From Streptomyces sp. SLBN-31 (GTDB lineage Bacteria; Actinomycetota; Actinomycetes; Streptomycetales; Streptomycetaceae): 64,000 nt of DNA. Under the pieces are notes generated by a model. It had not been told where the DNA came from and searched no databases. It saw only the letters and a program-made list of their open reading frames with translations. The DNA is taken from contig NZ_VFNC01000001.1 of assembly GCF_006715395.1 (NCBI RefSeq), positions 3,472,001-3,536,000 of the forward strand. Direction: 5' to 3'. Of this stretch, positions 2,348 through 53,023 are shown one piece after another. How positions within the stretch are numbered: position 1 is the first letter of the stretch; each line of letters begins with the position of its first letter. The translations under genes and the position numbers were made by a program.

Positions 2348-3277
2348 TCACCAGGGCAGGTCGACGACGACGGGCCGGTGGTCCGACACCGGCATACGCG
2401 GAGCACTCGCGGCGAGCGGCGCGCACCGGCATGCGCCGGAGACGAGGACATGGTCGAACTGGACCACGGGGCGGTGCGAGGGATACGTCCGGACCCGGGC
2501 CGGCTCCCGCCAGCCACCCAGCCCCGTCGGCCGAACGGACCGCTCGTGCGGGCACGACCCGGCGCACAGTGCCGCACCTCGACCGGCCTTGGGGGCGAGG
2601 ATCTCGGCGGTACCGAGCACGACCCTGGGGATCGGGCCGATCAGGTTGAGGTCACCCAGCAGGACGTGCGGCCGAGGCAGGTCGGCGATCCACTCTCGTA
2701 CGGCGAGCAGTTGCCTGATGTTCCATCCGGGGACGAACGAGAGATGCACCGCCACCACCGTCAACAGCCCACGCTCCGCCGCCATTACGGCGGCCAGGGC
2801 AGCGCGCGGCTGGTCGCGGACCACGGTGAGTCCGGGCCTCCCGGGCACCCGCAGCGGCAGCGCCGAGGGGGCCGGCGCGAACCGTCTCGCCCGCCATTCC
2901 CGAACCGGCAGCCTGGACAGCAGCGCGATGCCGTGCGACGGCACCTCATCTTGGGCCGGCGCATCGTGCGGACCGTGGACCCGTAGCTCCGGCGCGGACG
3001 GGTCGAGCAGCCACCCCTTGCCCGGCACGGCCCGGCCGTGGACCGCCGACGCGTACCGCCATTCCGGTGCGTCCGCTGCTTCGGCGGCGACGTGCGCCTG
3101 GTCCATGTGCCCCGACCGCTTCTGGAAGCGGTCGAGCTCCTGCAGCGCCAGGACGTCGGCGTCCAGCGCCGCGACGGCGTCAGCCAGTGGAAGCCCGGCC
3201 TGCGCGGGCGGGACGGAAACGGGCCGGCCGTCCTGAAGTGTCCGGCCGTGCAGCACGTTGAAGGTCGCGAACCGCAT
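2348..3277 (-). CDS. endonuclease/exonuclease/phosphatase family protein
   Basis: The 309-residue protein starts at the ATG at 3277 (MRFATFNVLHG). An in-frame upstream extension to 3328 lacks this family's typical N-terminus and is rejected. Family motifs are in order: TFNVLHG (5-11, metal-ligand Asn7), LQELD with Glu47, VAVHLS with His178, GDLN (208-211) and C-terminal SDHRP with Asp299/His300. These form the metal-dependent phosphoesterase site of the DNase I-like fold. No signal peptide is seen. The natural substrate (nucleic acid, phospholipid or inositol phosphate) cannot be decided. It is convergent with the ArsR gene and lies 51 bp past the downstream end of the minus-strand hydrolase gene. 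Confidence 0.9.
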   Translation of the reverse strand: MRFATFNVLHGRTLQDGRPVSVPPAQAGLPLADAVAALDADVLALQELDRFQKRSGHMDQAHVAAEAADAPEWRYASAVHGRAVPGKGWLLDPSAPELRVHGPHDAPAQDEVPSHGIALLSRLPVREWRARRFAPAPSALPLRVPGRPGLTVVRDQPRAALAAVMAAERGLLTVVAVHLSFVPGWNIRQLLAVREWIADLPRPHVLLGDLNLIGPIPRVVLGTAEILAPKAGRGAALCAGSCPHERSVRPTGLGGWREPARVRTYPSHRPVVQFDHVLVSGACRCAPLAASAPRMPVSDHRPVVVDLPW

Positions 3278-21426: not shown

Positions 21427-23508
21427 TCACCCGATGAAGTCGGCGACCAGGGTGGCGAACTCGTCCGGGGTGGCCAGTCGGACACCGAGGGTCTCGGCCT
21501 TGGCCCGCTTCGATCCCGCGCCTTCCCCGGCGACGACCAGGGTGGTCTTCTTGGAGACGCTGGAGGACGAGCGGCCGCCGGCCCGCTCGATCAGCTCGTT
21601 CATCTGATTGCGGCTGAGCTTCTCCAGAGCGCCGGTCATCGCGCCGGTGACCACGACCGTCATCCCGGCCAGCGGTCCACCCATCGCGCCCTCGGCGTCC
21701 GCGGACTCGGTCGAGGCGGCCGTCGACGGGGGAGTGGCGCCGGGTTCGGTCATGTTCACCCCGGCGGCAGCGAGTTTGTCGATGAGCGGGGCGAGTTCGG
21801 CGAGTTCGGCGACGATCGACGGGGCCTTCTCGGTGCCGATGCCCTCCACCTGCTGCATCGCCTCGGCGTCCGCGGCCCGGATGCCGTCCATGGTGGCGAA
21901 GTGCCTCGCGATACGGCGGGACATGGAGCGGCCGGTGCCGCGGATGCCGAGCGCGCACAGCACCCGGGACAGCGGCTGGTCCTTGGCCGCGCCGATCGCC
22001 GCCAGGAGGTTGTCGGTGCTGGTCTCGCCCATCCGCTCCAGGCCCAGCAACTGCTCGCGGGTGAGGGCGAACAGGTCGGCGAGGTCGGTGACGAGACCGG
22101 CGTCGACCAGCTGGACGACCCGGGTGTGGCCGAGGCCCTCGATGTCGAGCTGGTCGCGGCCGGCCGCGTAGGACAGGGCGGCCACCAGGTGGCAGTTGCG
22201 TCCGTTCTCGCAGCGCCAGCGCTGCTCGCTGGTGTCGATGCCGGACCCGCAGCGCGGGCACACGTCCGGGAAGACGATGGGCTGTTCGTCACCGGTGCGC
22301 AGGTGGGCGACGGGAGCCTCGATACGGGGGATGACGTCACCGGCCCGGTGCACCATGACCTGGTCGCCCAGCCGCAGGTCACGGCGGGTGATGTCGGCCG
22401 GGTTGTGGAGGGTGGCGTAGGTGATGGTGGCGCCGTCGATCTCGACCGGCTCCAGGACGGCACGCGGGGCGATGATGCCGGTACGGCCGACGTTCCACTC
22501 CACCTCCAGCAGCCGGGTGATCTTCTCGACGGCCGGCAGCTTGTAGGCGATGGCCCAGCGCGGAGCCCGCGAACCCGACCCCGCGGCCTGCTGGTCGGCG
22601 GCCAGGTCGGCCTTGATGACGATTCCGTCGATCCCGAACGGCAGCTCGGCCCGCAGCGCTGCGATCTCCTGCACCCGGGCCAGCACCCGTTCGACGGTGT
22701 CGGCGGTGATGCCGGGCACCGCGGTGGTGGCGGTGGTGTTGATCCCGTACGCGGCGGCCTGCGCCATCAGGTCGCTGTGCGCGAGTTCGCCCAGCCGCGC
22801 GGCGAGCTCGGTCCCGGTGTCGGGCAGGGGCAGCAGGCCGTAGCCGAAGAACGTCATCGGCACCGTGTAGGCGCGCTCCTTGGCACGCAGGGTGCCGGCG
22901 GACGCGCCGCGCGGGTTGGCGAACGGCTGCCCGCCGTGCGAGGTACGCGTCTCGTTGGCGTGCTCGAACTGGGCGGTCGTCATGAGGACTTCGCCGCGCA
23001 CCTCGACGGTGACCGGCTCGGCGAGTTCGTCCGGCAGCCCCTCGATGGTGCCGATCGCGTGCGAGACGTCCTCACCGGCCGTCCCGTCGCCGCGGGTGAT
23101 CAGCTGTCTCAGGCGTCCGTGGGTGTAGCGGGCGGCGACCGCGAGACCGTCCAGCTTCGGCTCGACACTGAACCGCTCGACGTCGTGGCCGATGCGCCGG
23201 GCGAGCGAGGCCGTCCAGGCCGTGAACTCCTCGGGCGAGAACACGTTGTCCAGACTCAGCATCGCCACCGTGTGCGGGACATCGCCCTCCACCGCGCCGC
23301 CGGCGACCTTCCCCGTCGGAGTGTCGGGCAGCACCTGCTCGGGATGGTCGGCCTCCCACGCGGCGATGCCACGCACCAGACGGTCGTAGGCGTCGTCGTC
23401 GAGTGCCGACGTCCCGCCCGCGTAGTAGGCGGCGGCTGCCTTCACCGCCTCTTCGACCGCCTGGGCGTAGGCGGCGGCATCCGTGATCACTGCTGCAGGT
23501 GTTGTCAT
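21427..23508 (-). CDS. ligA: NAD-dependent DNA ligase (LigA family), divergent copy
   Basis: The start is ATG 23508, with AGG 9 nt upstream; an ATG at 23517 is also possible. The 693-residue protein has the adenylation lysine in VEPKLDG (Lys118), nucleotidyltransferase motifs ([25 protein letters not shown]), an OB fold, a four-cysteine zinc finger (CPRCGSG...CENGRNC), helix-hairpin-helix repeats and a C-terminal BRCT domain ([16 protein letters not shown]). All catalytic features are present. It is somewhat shorter than the usual Streptomyces LigA, and its NAD-binding segment is unusual ([13 protein letters not shown]). With no housekeeping neighbours, it is probably a second, accessory ligase. 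Confidence 0.93.
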
Positions 23509-50839: not shown

Positions 50840-51595
50840 TCAGTTGAGGCCGGCCGCCGGTTGGCGTGCCGTGGCAGCCGCGGCGGGCTTGGGATTCAGC
50901 AGCCGTTCGGCCAACTCGCCGAAGACCAGACCGAATCCGGTCCACAAAGCCATCTGGATGGCCAGCGCGGAGAGCCGGAAGCGCCACAGCACGGTGGCCG
51001 GGAACTCTCTCGGCACCTCATTGACGACGGGCAGGAACGCGTACGCGAGCCCGATCACCAGCACGAAGGCGGCCACCGCGACCACGGTCGCCCACCATGT
51101 GCCCAGGGACGGCGCCAGGCGCTTGCCCAAGATCGTGGCGGCGATCGTGAGGAGGACGCTGAGCACCATCATCAGGAAGTACAGGGTGGTCCGCTTGCCA
51201 ATGGTGTCGGGGTGGCCGACGGACGGCGGGTTGGCCGGGTACTTCAGGAAGGGGACGACGTAGACGGTGAGCAGTGCGCAGCCGGACAGCAGCAGTGCCG
51301 TCGCGCGGGGGGTGAAGCGGCCGACGCGGCCGAGTGCGAAGGCGTAGGCGAGGGCGGCGATGCCGCCGAAGGCGACCCCGTAGATGAGGACGCCGGTGGC
51401 CAGGCCGGCGGTGGACTGCAGGGAGCGGGAGACCACTTCCATCTCGTGCCCGTGGGAGTGGCCCTCCTCGAAGGCGATCGCCTTGTCGACGTACGGCTCG
51501 CCGAGAAGGTAGGCCACGACCAGCGCGAGCACGCCGGCCGCGAGGCCGGCGAGCATGCCGCGCACGAGGAGGTTTCTTACCGTTGCGGAGTTCAT
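50840..51595 (-). CDS. cbtA: CbtA cobalt transporter subunit
   Basis: The 251-residue protein starts at ATG 51595 and has about six membrane helices. The first loop has the His/Glu-rich metal segment EEGHSHGHEMEVVSR typical of CbtA, after the helix LLVRGMLAGLAAGVLALVVAYLLGEPYVDKAIA. The central FLKYPANPPSVGHPDTIGKRT is a conserved CbtA signature. CbtAB is a proposed B12-regulated cobalt uptake system of the cytoplasmic membrane. It lies 22 bp downstream of cbtB in one operon behind a cobalamin riboswitch. Confidence 0.94.
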   Translation of the reverse strand: MNSATVRNLLVRGMLAGLAAGVLALVVAYLLGEPYVDKAIAFEEGHSHGHEMEVVSRSLQSTAGLATGVLIYGVAFGGIAALAYAFALGRVGRFTPRATALLLSGCALLTVYVVPFLKYPANPPSVGHPDTIGKRTTLYFLMMVLSVLLTIAATILGKRLAPSLGTWWATVVAVAAFVLVIGLAYAFLPVVNEVPREFPATVLWRFRLSALAIQMALWTGFGLVFGELAERLLNPKPAAAATARQPAAGLN

Positions 51596-51617: not shown

Positions 51618-51839
51618 TCAGTGGCAGGGGAAGCCGAGCAGGTGGCGGGCGTCGTGCACCCACTCGTGAACGTCCGTGCCGTTGAACACGGAGGTGGCGC
51701 CCTGCTCGGCGCCGACGAAGTACAGCAGGACCAGCATCAGGATGCCGAAGAAGACCGCCCAAGGAGCGATCGCGCCGATCGGCAGCTTGGCGGGAAGAGC
51801 GGGAGTGGTGGCAGTCGGCTGGGCGACATGCTGCGCCAT
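51618..51839 (-). CDS. cbtB: CbtB cobalt transporter subunit
   Basis: The 73-residue protein starts at ATG 51839 with a perfect AGGAGG upstream. It has one membrane helix (IGAIAPWAVFFGILMLVLLYFVGAEQG). The C-terminus is the histidine-rich CbtB signature, DVHEWVHDARHLLGFPCH. It is the first gene of the cbtBA operon, and its leader (51887-51989) contains a cobalamin riboswitch, so expression should fall when B12 is plentiful. Confidence 0.95.
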   Translation of the reverse strand: MAQHVAQPTATTPALPAKLPIGAIAPWAVFFGILMLVLLYFVGAEQGATSVFNGTDVHEWVHDARHLLGFPCH

Positions 51840-51886
51840 GGCAGGGCCTCCTCTGGGAGTTCGCGTCCCATCTCGGTGGTGCACAT

Positions 51887-51989
51887 GACGACGGCTACGG
51901 GTCTGACTCGCCGCCACCTCTTCGCGAGGCGCAGGCACACAGTGGCGCGACCGTTCCGGATTCCCACCGGCTTCCGTCTTGCCGTCGTC
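51887..51989 (-). ncRNA. cobalamin riboswitch upstream of cbtBA
   Basis: On the minus strand the B12 box reads GGAAGCCGGTGGGAATCCGG, then CGCGCCACTGT (51939-51977), matching the conserved cobalamin element. The 3' conserved GCGAGTCAGACCC follows. A perfect 9-bp closing stem GACGACGGC/GCCGTCGTC joins 51981-51989 with 51887-51895. Extra 5' sequence to about 52045 may also belong to it. It ends 47 nt before the cbtB start, so control could be at translation initiation. Confidence 0.9.
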
Positions 51990-52205
51990 GATATCCCAGC
52001 GACCGTACCGCGTGTCGCGAACATGGCCAAGACCGCACCACCTGGAGTGATGCATCTCGCGGCGGAAGGGGGATGCGGCGATGGTGCAGTCGGTGCTCGC
52101 GTGGCGGCGCACCCCGGCCGTTGGTGAGGGAGACAGGGGGATTGAGCCCTCGTGTCGGAAGCCGCTGCCTGCGGACCGTCCGGCGGCCGTTACACTGGTC
52201 GGCAG

Positions 52206-52314
52206 CGAAGGGGAGTAGTCCCGCAACACCGGCAGGTCGACATACTGGATGTCCACGGATGTCCCGGCCTCCGGGCTCTCGCATCACATGGTGCGGGGGT
52301 GGACGAGACCTTCG
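52206..52314 (+). ncRNA. yybP-ykoY (manganese) riboswitch upstream of the GDT1-family gene
   Basis: The element opens with CGAAGGGGAGTAGTCCCGC and closes with GGACGAGACCTTCG. The closing stem CGAAGG (52206-52211)/CCTTCG (52309-52314) and the GGGGAGTAG and GACGAGACC blocks are the conserved parts of this class. It senses Mn2+ and usually switches on exporter genes. A strong hairpin follows at 52329-52352, then the exporter start at 52442. Confidence 0.92.
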
Positions 52315-52328
52315 GCCAAGGCAAGACC

Positions 52329-52352
52329 CGGCCCGCACGGCTGTGCGGGCCG
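52329..52352 (+). terminator. hairpin after the manganese riboswitch, probable expression platform
   Basis: CGGCCCGCAC (52329-52338) and GTGCGGGCCG (52343-52352) form a perfect 10-bp stem with a 4-nt loop, 14 bp after the riboswitch and 89 bp before the start codon. It could terminate transcription unless manganese-bound aptamer folding prevents it. Confidence 0.6.
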
Positions 52353-52441
52353 CTCCGTCATGCCGGGCCGAGTGGTTCTTCCCGTCGCCCGCCTGGGTGC
52401 CTCACGAGCCCGTGGCCCGGCCCCGGCAGAAAGCACCAGTA

Positions 52442-53023
52442 ATGACCTTCGACCCCGTGGCGCTCGTCACCGCGTTCGGACTGATCTTCCTCGCGGAGCT
52501 GCCCGACAAGACGATGTTCGCCTCGCTGGCCATGGGCACCCGCATGCGGCCGCTGTACGTGTGGTTCGGCACCTCCACGGCATTCGTCGTGCACGTGACC
52601 ATCGCCGTGGGCGCCGGCAGCCTGCTCAGCCTGCTGCCCACCCTGGCCGTCAAACTCGTCTCCGCCGCCCTGTTCGCCTTCGGCGCCGTCGTCCTGCTGC
52701 GAGGGTCGGGCGACGATGAGGACGAGACCGCCGGGAAGACCGTCACCGGTTTCTGGCCCGTCTACACCACTGCCTTCATGGCCGTGTTCATCAGCGAATG
52801 GGGTGATCTGACGCAGATCACCACGGCCAACCTTGCCGCCACGAACGGCTGGCTGCCCACCGCGATCGGATCCGCCGCCGCCCTGATGTCTGTCTCCGCC
52901 CTGGCCCTGCTGGCCGGGCGGTTCATCGCCAAGAAGGTGCCGCTGAAGACCGTGCAGCGCTTCGGTGCCCTCTGCATGGCGGGCCTTGCCATCTGGACCC
53001 TCGTCGAGGCGGTCACCGGCTGA
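52442..53023 (+). CDS. TMEM165/GDT1-family manganese exporter
   Basis: The start is ATG 52442, giving 193 residues and six membrane helices in two related halves. Each half has the family cation motif: FLAELPDKTMFASLAMGTR in helix 1 and ISEWGDLTQITTANLAA in the second half. Bacterial relatives export Mn2+ and protect against its toxicity. The yybP-ykoY riboswitch in the leader agrees with this role. The first motif has Pro in place of the usual Gly (E-L-P-D-K instead of E-x-G-D-K). It is divergent from cbtBA. Confidence 0.94.
   Translation: MTFDPVALVTAFGLIFLAELPDKTMFASLAMGTRMRPLYVWFGTSTAFVVHVTIAVGAGSLLSLLPTLAVKLVSAALFAFGAVVLLRGSGDDEDETAGKTVTGFWPVYTTAFMAVFISEWGDLTQITTANLAATNGWLPTAIGSAAALMSVSALALLAGRFIAKKVPLKTVQRFGALCMAGLAIWTLVEAVTG

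Follow-up and report, generated by a model that had tools for sequence, protein, structure and literature searches.

Riboswitches of the yybP-ykoY type (RF00080) that respond to Mn2+, their partnership with GDT1 genes and, through PMC9495176, a three-way-junction form of their aptamer are already known. According to PMC6754395, loop L3 of the X. oryzae aptamer reads ACA48U49ACU52, and its adenosine coordinates Mn2+ in crystal structures. In the L. lactis riboswitch, as described in PMC11087558, the 3' strand of helix P1.1 is exchanged between the aptamer and a terminator hairpin, and Mn2+ favours P1.1 and expression. The aptamer of S. pneumoniae mgtA is reported to form a three-way junction (PMC9495176, citing Martin et al. 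2019), and a review places 328 of 333 screened UPF0016 genes under a yybP-ykoY riboswitch (PMC7380456). For the cobalamin riboswitch (RF00174, clan CL00101), cobalt transporter genes are a known target class (PMC3766115). Finally, two riboswitches that lie close together have been described as tandem or contiguous riboswitches (PMC12452182), which in that work share one transcript and one strand; neither 'divergent' nor 'opposite strand' is used there. Among open-licence papers, we found no study of a yybP-ykoY or manganese riboswitch in Streptomyces.

We analysed by computation a locus of Streptomyces sp. SLBN-31 (genome size 9.47 Mb) that lies within a stretch of 64,000 nucleotides, termed the window. 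It contains a cobalamin element on the minus strand and a Mn2+-type element on the plus strand which are arranged 5' to 5', a layout that an earlier reading of the DNA, made without database searches (the sequence-only reading), had described correctly. In contrast to the published tandems, the two elements are found on opposite strands and belong to separate transcripts. The genes that the sequence-only reading had named are borne out by Pfam: cbtB (51618-51839, minus strand, 73 aa; PF09489, E 1.1e-9) is the first gene 3' of the B12 leader and is followed by cbtA (50840-51595, minus strand, 251 aa; PF09490, E 1.2e-71), both coding for cobalt transporter subunits, and on the plus strand there is a GDT1/UPF0016 cation exporter of 193 aa (52442-53023; PF01169, E 9.5e-34), which is 93% identical to the GDT1 of Streptomyces echinoruber. 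The exporter carries ELPDKT and EWGDLT in place of the family signature E-x-G-D-(R/K)-(S/T) (PMC7380456), both copies being altered.

The cobalamin element upstream of cbtBA

The minus-strand element is a genuine cobalamin riboswitch. Its aptamer core (51887-51989, minus strand), delimited by the RF00174 match and by motifs, shares with the members of this family the B12 box (GCGCCACTG, 51940-51948), the closing stem P1 and the conserved core block GAGTCAGACC (51900-51909), and like known members it precedes cobalt transporter genes. P1 comprises 9 bp (GACGACGGC/GCCGTCGTC, 51981-51989/51887-51895), and both this stem and the B12 box are present as the sequence-only reading had it. Moreover, a GGUGG in the region of 51963-51968 is complementary to CACCACC (51875-51881), which may be compared to the L5-L13 kissing loop of the family. 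What sets the element apart is its score: at permissive Rfam settings applied to 2 kb, RF00174 matches 51875-52027 (minus strand) at an E of 1.7e-5, and its 30.7 bits are 0.8 bits short of the gathering score of 31.5, while the relatives span from slightly below to above this value. In its own genome, which has five RF00174 matches, three of them over the cut-off, the window element ranks fourth.

The leaders of other cbtB genes support the assignment. An Rfam scan that took in 20 of 29 cbtB loci recovered a cobalamin-clan match at the leader in all 20, of which 12 score above the RF00174 cut-off and one slightly under it (L102, 31.0 bits); the remaining seven are assigned to the sister family RF01482, whose cut-off of 50 they do not reach. 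One of the loci, L103, contains a further cobalamin riboswitch downstream of cbtA (2836-3040), with a high score of 70.7 bits. In an alignment of the window with the 29 loci (n=30; subset A3, 24 of 30), the cobalamin element, a promoter-like pair and the segment CTCCCAGAGGAGG are conserved with small variants. By inspection, at least 4 of the 30 leaders show compensatory changes in P1, and a few others have single mismatches. The segment CTCCCAGAGGAGG (51847-51859, minus strand), conserved in the 30 leaders as well as in the 24 of A3, contains the Shine-Dalgarno sequence AGGAGG and, just 5' of it, a complementary CTCC, which is suggestive of a possible hairpin that would sequester the Shine-Dalgarno sequence.

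The leader of the GDT1 gene and its relatives

Judged by its sequence, the plus-strand element is a yybP-ykoY-type leader, and its ligand is probably Mn2+. Motifs, the consensus fold and a model built from GDT1 leaders (R1) delimit an aptamer at 52205-52314 (plus strand). Motif searches place in it L1 (GGGGAGTAG, 52210-52218) and the GACGAGACC block (52302-52310), closed by the 6-bp stem P1.1 (CGAAGG/CCTTCG, 52206-52211/52309-52314), and thus find the two blocks and the closing stem that the sequence-only reading had noticed. The predicted fold adds L3 (ACATACT, 52240-52246) as the loop of P3, and a P4 hairpin at about 52275-52299. The L3 of the window is identical to the ACAUACU of X. oryzae, and by motif comparison A52242 corresponds to the Mn2+-coordinating A48.

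With the RF00080 members from E. coli (mntP), L. lactis and X. oryzae the element has in common L1 GGGGAGUAG facing (G/A)CGAGACC, the closing helix P1.1, whose 3' strand is also part of a downstream hairpin, a seven-nucleotide L3 with the invariable Mn2+-coordinating adenosine (present in 79 of 79 sequences), and the kinds of target gene, namely GDT1, TerC and cation ATPases. For E. coli mntP, L1, L3 and GGCGAGACC are the same as in the window. Unlike these members, the window element has no P2 between P1.2 and P3 and therefore a three-way instead of a four-way junction. We did not treat the absent P2 as excluding a yybP-ykoY identity, since a member with a three-way junction has already been reported (PMC9495176). 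The idea that such a junction is new was dropped, because S. pneumoniae mgtA is described in that source as having one.

The window element is also far below the Rfam cut-off: at permissive settings on 2 kb, RF00080 recovers only a 10.1-bit fragment at 52236-52268 (plus strand, E 5.6), compared to a cut-off of 45. However, the same model gives 41.6 bits for the leader of E. coli mntP, which is an established member. The low score is therefore weak evidence against a Mn2+ element, the 45-bit cut-off is an unfair definition of the family, and we rejected a sub-threshold score as a disproof. As a gathering score above that of E. coli mntP implies, Rfam-based annotation misses known members. At gathering scores, no Rfam family is detected anywhere in the window. 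The check with Rfam models that the sequence-only reading had proposed thus leaves both elements under their cut-offs; the identities that it gave to them and to the genes behind them are nevertheless supported, those of the elements by the cobalamin-clan matches at all 20 cbtB loci scanned and by the conserved motif set and covarying fold of the manganese leader, and those of the genes by Pfam.

Conservation of the manganese leader was assessed in 80 GDT1 loci from public genomes, mostly of Streptomyces together with Actinomadura, Kitasatospora, Actinacidiphila and Microtetraspora. The motif set, consisting of the L1 block, GRCGAGACC and the downstream hairpin motif, is kept in 78 of them, the exceptions being L005 and L062. 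All 79 motif-set sequences, window included, contain GTCGACA[TC][AG]CTGG. Among the relatives, L3 occurs as ACACACT (n=48) and ACACGCT (n=9), so that 57 of the 79 sequences have a C at the position of the X. oryzae U49, whereas the window keeps the U. From the motif-set sequences we derived alignment A1 (44 of 79, similarity below 0.93), and from the loci alignment A2 (35 of 80, similarity below 0.90), from which L062, without the motif, was left out; the leader ranges of L001 and L057 were set by hand. The consensus fold of the 44 non-redundant leaders consists of P1.1, P1.2, P3 with its seven-base L3, and P4, without P2. Covariation in the aptamer amounts to 0.305, compared to 0.126±0.007 in shuffled alignments, and 14 of 31 pairs show compensatory changes, P1.1 being invariant in this set. 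In an alignment of 31 loci from the phylum (A4), which was fitted to the model and is biased towards it, 23 of the 31 pairs vary on both sides, including three of the six in P1.1.

Model R1 matches its training sequences by construction, as is the case for the 104.9 bits of the window. It finds matches in 93 of 101 same-genus genomes, own genome included, of which 33 reach at least 70 bits. RF00080 matches 11 of the 101 genomes at E <= 1e-3; all 11 stay below its cut-off, and the own genome is not among them. Five of these loci were fetched, and four lie before GDT1, the fifth (L118) before a Na/Ca exchanger. When R1 was run on 296 genomes of the phylum, 37 were matched. GDT1 is located downstream in 20 of the 29 phylum loci that were fetched from genomes other than the own one (tblastn), and other targets identified by Pfam are TerC (L132), a Na/Ca exchanger (L137) and a P-type cation ATPase (L145). 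Thus, the genes at R1 loci are mostly of kinds known for the yybP-ykoY riboswitch. RF00080, run on 20 of these 29 loci, detects one at E <= 0.01. On E. coli mntP, R1 aligns in the right register with 20.1 bits (E 0.015), which is less than the 22.1 bits of an unrelated segment at 22060-22144 of the window. The evidence for kinship with mntP is therefore the shared motifs, their register and the RF00080 matches to relatives.

Several observations concern other R1 loci and GDT1 genes. Among the 29 phylum loci, the type of L3 goes with the gene: CGACAnnCTG-like sequences, as in the window, are found in the 20 that have GDT1, and CGTCAnnACGG in the nine that lack it (L132, L137, L140-L143, L145, L148 and L149); the exception is L118, where a Na/Ca exchanger follows an L3 of the window type. 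Same-genus genomes (G013, G067, G088, G095 and others) also contain R1 matches of a second class, which score lower (about 35-60 bits); the five loci of this class that were inspected (L144, L146, L147, L150 and L151) precede a GDT1 paralogue that is 45-48% identical to the protein of the window. The own genome has a second GDT1-family gene (G000:C2:2901300-2901509) without a detectable Mn2+-type leader, as neither R1, in the surrounding 2.8 kb, nor RF00080 matches at this locus.

The expression platform of the GDT1 leader

Downstream of the aptamer, Vienna folds and the alignment suggest an expression-platform hairpin (52309-52372, plus strand) in which CCTTCGGCC (52309-52317), shared with P1.1, pairs with GGCCGAG (52366-52372), enclosing GCCCGCAC/GTGCGGGC. 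In Vienna folds of growing transcripts, calculated without metal or tertiary contacts, P1.1 is kept up to an end at 52365, and with the end at 52380 its 3' strand CUUCGG has moved into the hairpin closed by GGCCGAG. Both alternative pairings are conserved. Over the 35 leaders, 95.2% of the cells of the hairpin are paired, compared to at most 49% in slid controls, and its covariation is 0.170, compared to 0.147±0.007 in shuffled alignments. As modelled, the exchange between P1.1 and the hairpin is the known ON-switch layout, as described for L. lactis.

Such a hairpin might stop either transcription or translation. No U-run follows it and no terminator-like site was found by scan, which would fit an action on translation instead of transcription. 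The hairpin contains CCGGGCC, which is complementary to GGCCCGG (52414-52420), and this lies beside AGAAAG (52428-52433), a putative Shine-Dalgarno-like sequence by its position. Freed CCGGGCC might therefore pair with GGCCCGG and open or shape the ribosome-binding site. The complementarity holds in 34 or 35 of the 35 sequences at most pairs, and RNAalifold on A2 prefers this pairing. However, although 98.4% of the cells are paired, there is no covariation, so that the pairing figure is no test; slid controls reach 66%, and the absence of covariation in a G+C-rich region means that the complementarity may be compositional. We regard regulation of translation as a tenable possibility, if not the one we would favour.

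Two modules in a head-to-head arrangement

Two separate promoters are a better reading of the sequence between the elements than the one divergent promoter proposed by the sequence-only reading. On the minus strand, the alignment of 30 leaders points to a cbtBA promoter (52002-52030) consisting of TTGGCC (52025-52030), a spacer of 17 nt and TACGGT (52002-52007). On the plus strand, TACACT (52191-52196) is a candidate -10 of the GDT1 leader, TAnnnT being kept at the same place in the aligned GDT1 leaders, and the predicted start sites would be about 200 bp apart. A consensus promoter and terminator scan of the region returned no promoter-like and no terminator-like sites. The 30-leader alignment also reveals a conserved stretch 5' of the cbt promoter (GCGAGATGCATCACTCCAGG, 52041-52060, minus strand), whose form in many relatives is GAGAGGAAGATCACGCC and which could be the site of a regulator.

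None of the other genomes examined shows the two modules paired, at variance with a synteny conserved across Streptomyces. A 983-bp query covering the junction has matches in 390 of 392 same-genus genomes; among those listed, the own genome is the only one matched over the full length, and in the others the matches are to one half or the other (cbt or GDT1), at separate sites. In these listed matches, the cbt side ends at or before base 448 of the query and the GDT1 side starts at or after base 543, corresponding to window positions up to 52065 and from 52160, respectively; the inter-module stretch of about 94 bp (52066-52159) is unmatched among them. In about 40 relatives, too, no junction-spanning match besides that of the own genome is found among the matches listed. 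Moreover, neither cbtA nor cbtB is present in any of the 80 GDT1 loci, of which 72 extend 3.9 kb or more upstream, whereas two, with under 400 bp, could not show the pairing. A cobalamin-type motif is likewise absent from all 80, the positive control being 29 of 29 cbtB loci, and within about 1.5 kb, none of the 29 cbtB loci contains GDT1. Outside the matches listed, the two modules could still be paired at another spacing, and the pairing itself could exist in close kin of the source strain. The short flanks of the 29 cbtB loci contain cbtA in 28 and a histidine phosphatase in 16 cases, and in contrast to cbtB, cbtA and histidine phosphatase, which travel together, the neighbours of GDT1 are varied. 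The head-to-head meeting of the modules thus looks like an accident of rearrangement.

These results bear on two readings that would see more, or less, in the locus than we do. The sequence-only reading had suggested that cobalt import and manganese export are linked through the shared intergenic region, the two metals competing for sites, and it did so from co-location alone. It is true that the 5' ends of the elements face each other, with predicted starts about 200 bp apart, and divergent promoters can affect each other via supercoiling. However, a separate conserved promoter-like sequence accompanies each module, the intervening stretch is unmatched among the matches listed, no shared operator was found and, above all, nothing that we searched shows the pairing to be conserved, which leaves linked control unsupported and, in our view, highly unlikely. 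Both outcomes which that reading had itself named as speaking against it, an Rfam score below threshold for either element and a pairing unique to this genome, have literally come about, and only the uniqueness of the pairing is telling. At the other extreme, the plus-strand element might be a chance resemblance and not a riboswitch at all, as could be read from the RF00080 fragment of 10.1 bits with its E of 5.6 and from the absence of RF00080 matches at E <= 1e-3 in the own genome. This is contradicted by the conservation and covariation of the leader, by RF00080 matches at the same place in relatives and by an identical Mn2+-site loop, and we consider it extremely improbable.

Very probably, the locus consists of two complete and independently inherited regulatory modules which came to lie head to head in the source genome by rearrangement, and no linking mechanism is needed. 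On the minus strand, a promoter would drive transcription through the cobalamin riboswitch into cbtB-cbtA, and family and anatomy suggest that B12, once bound, would turn cobalt uptake off, probably via a masked ribosome-binding site. On the plus strand, a second promoter would be followed by an actinobacterial Mn2+ riboswitch of the yybP-ykoY type, P2-less and folded as a three-way junction, and by the GDT1 exporter. In the direction of response that we infer, L1 and L3 would dock around the ion at high Mn2+, and P1.1 would hold. At low Mn2+, the 3' strand of P1.1, CCUUCGG, would pair with GGCCGAG, the long downstream hairpin would close and expression would be blocked, be it at transcription or translation. 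The GDT1 exporter would thus be made only at high Mn2+.

Since the pairing is not conserved, the paired device as such is of no importance. What remains after the pairing has failed is a known type of riboswitch in a diverged, actinobacterial branch that Rfam mostly misses. That Actinomycetota have their own branch of Mn2+ riboswitches in the wider sense, P2-less, largely missed by Rfam and with an L3 that tracks the target (ACAYRCU for GDT1; UCAnnAC for TerC, Na/Ca exchangers and P-type ATPases), in which loss of P2 and U49C may have altered metal affinity or selectivity, is a proposal we regard as rather doubtful. As a by-product, the analysis reveals a leader of the Mn2+-riboswitch type in most of the Streptomyces-like genomes searched (93 of 101), in none of which Rfam scores it above the cut-off. 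Annotation pipelines that rely on this cut-off therefore miss the manganese control of GDT1 exporters. Finally, P2-less aptamers that naturally carry U49C offer a small test bed for the determinants of metal selectivity in the docked structure.
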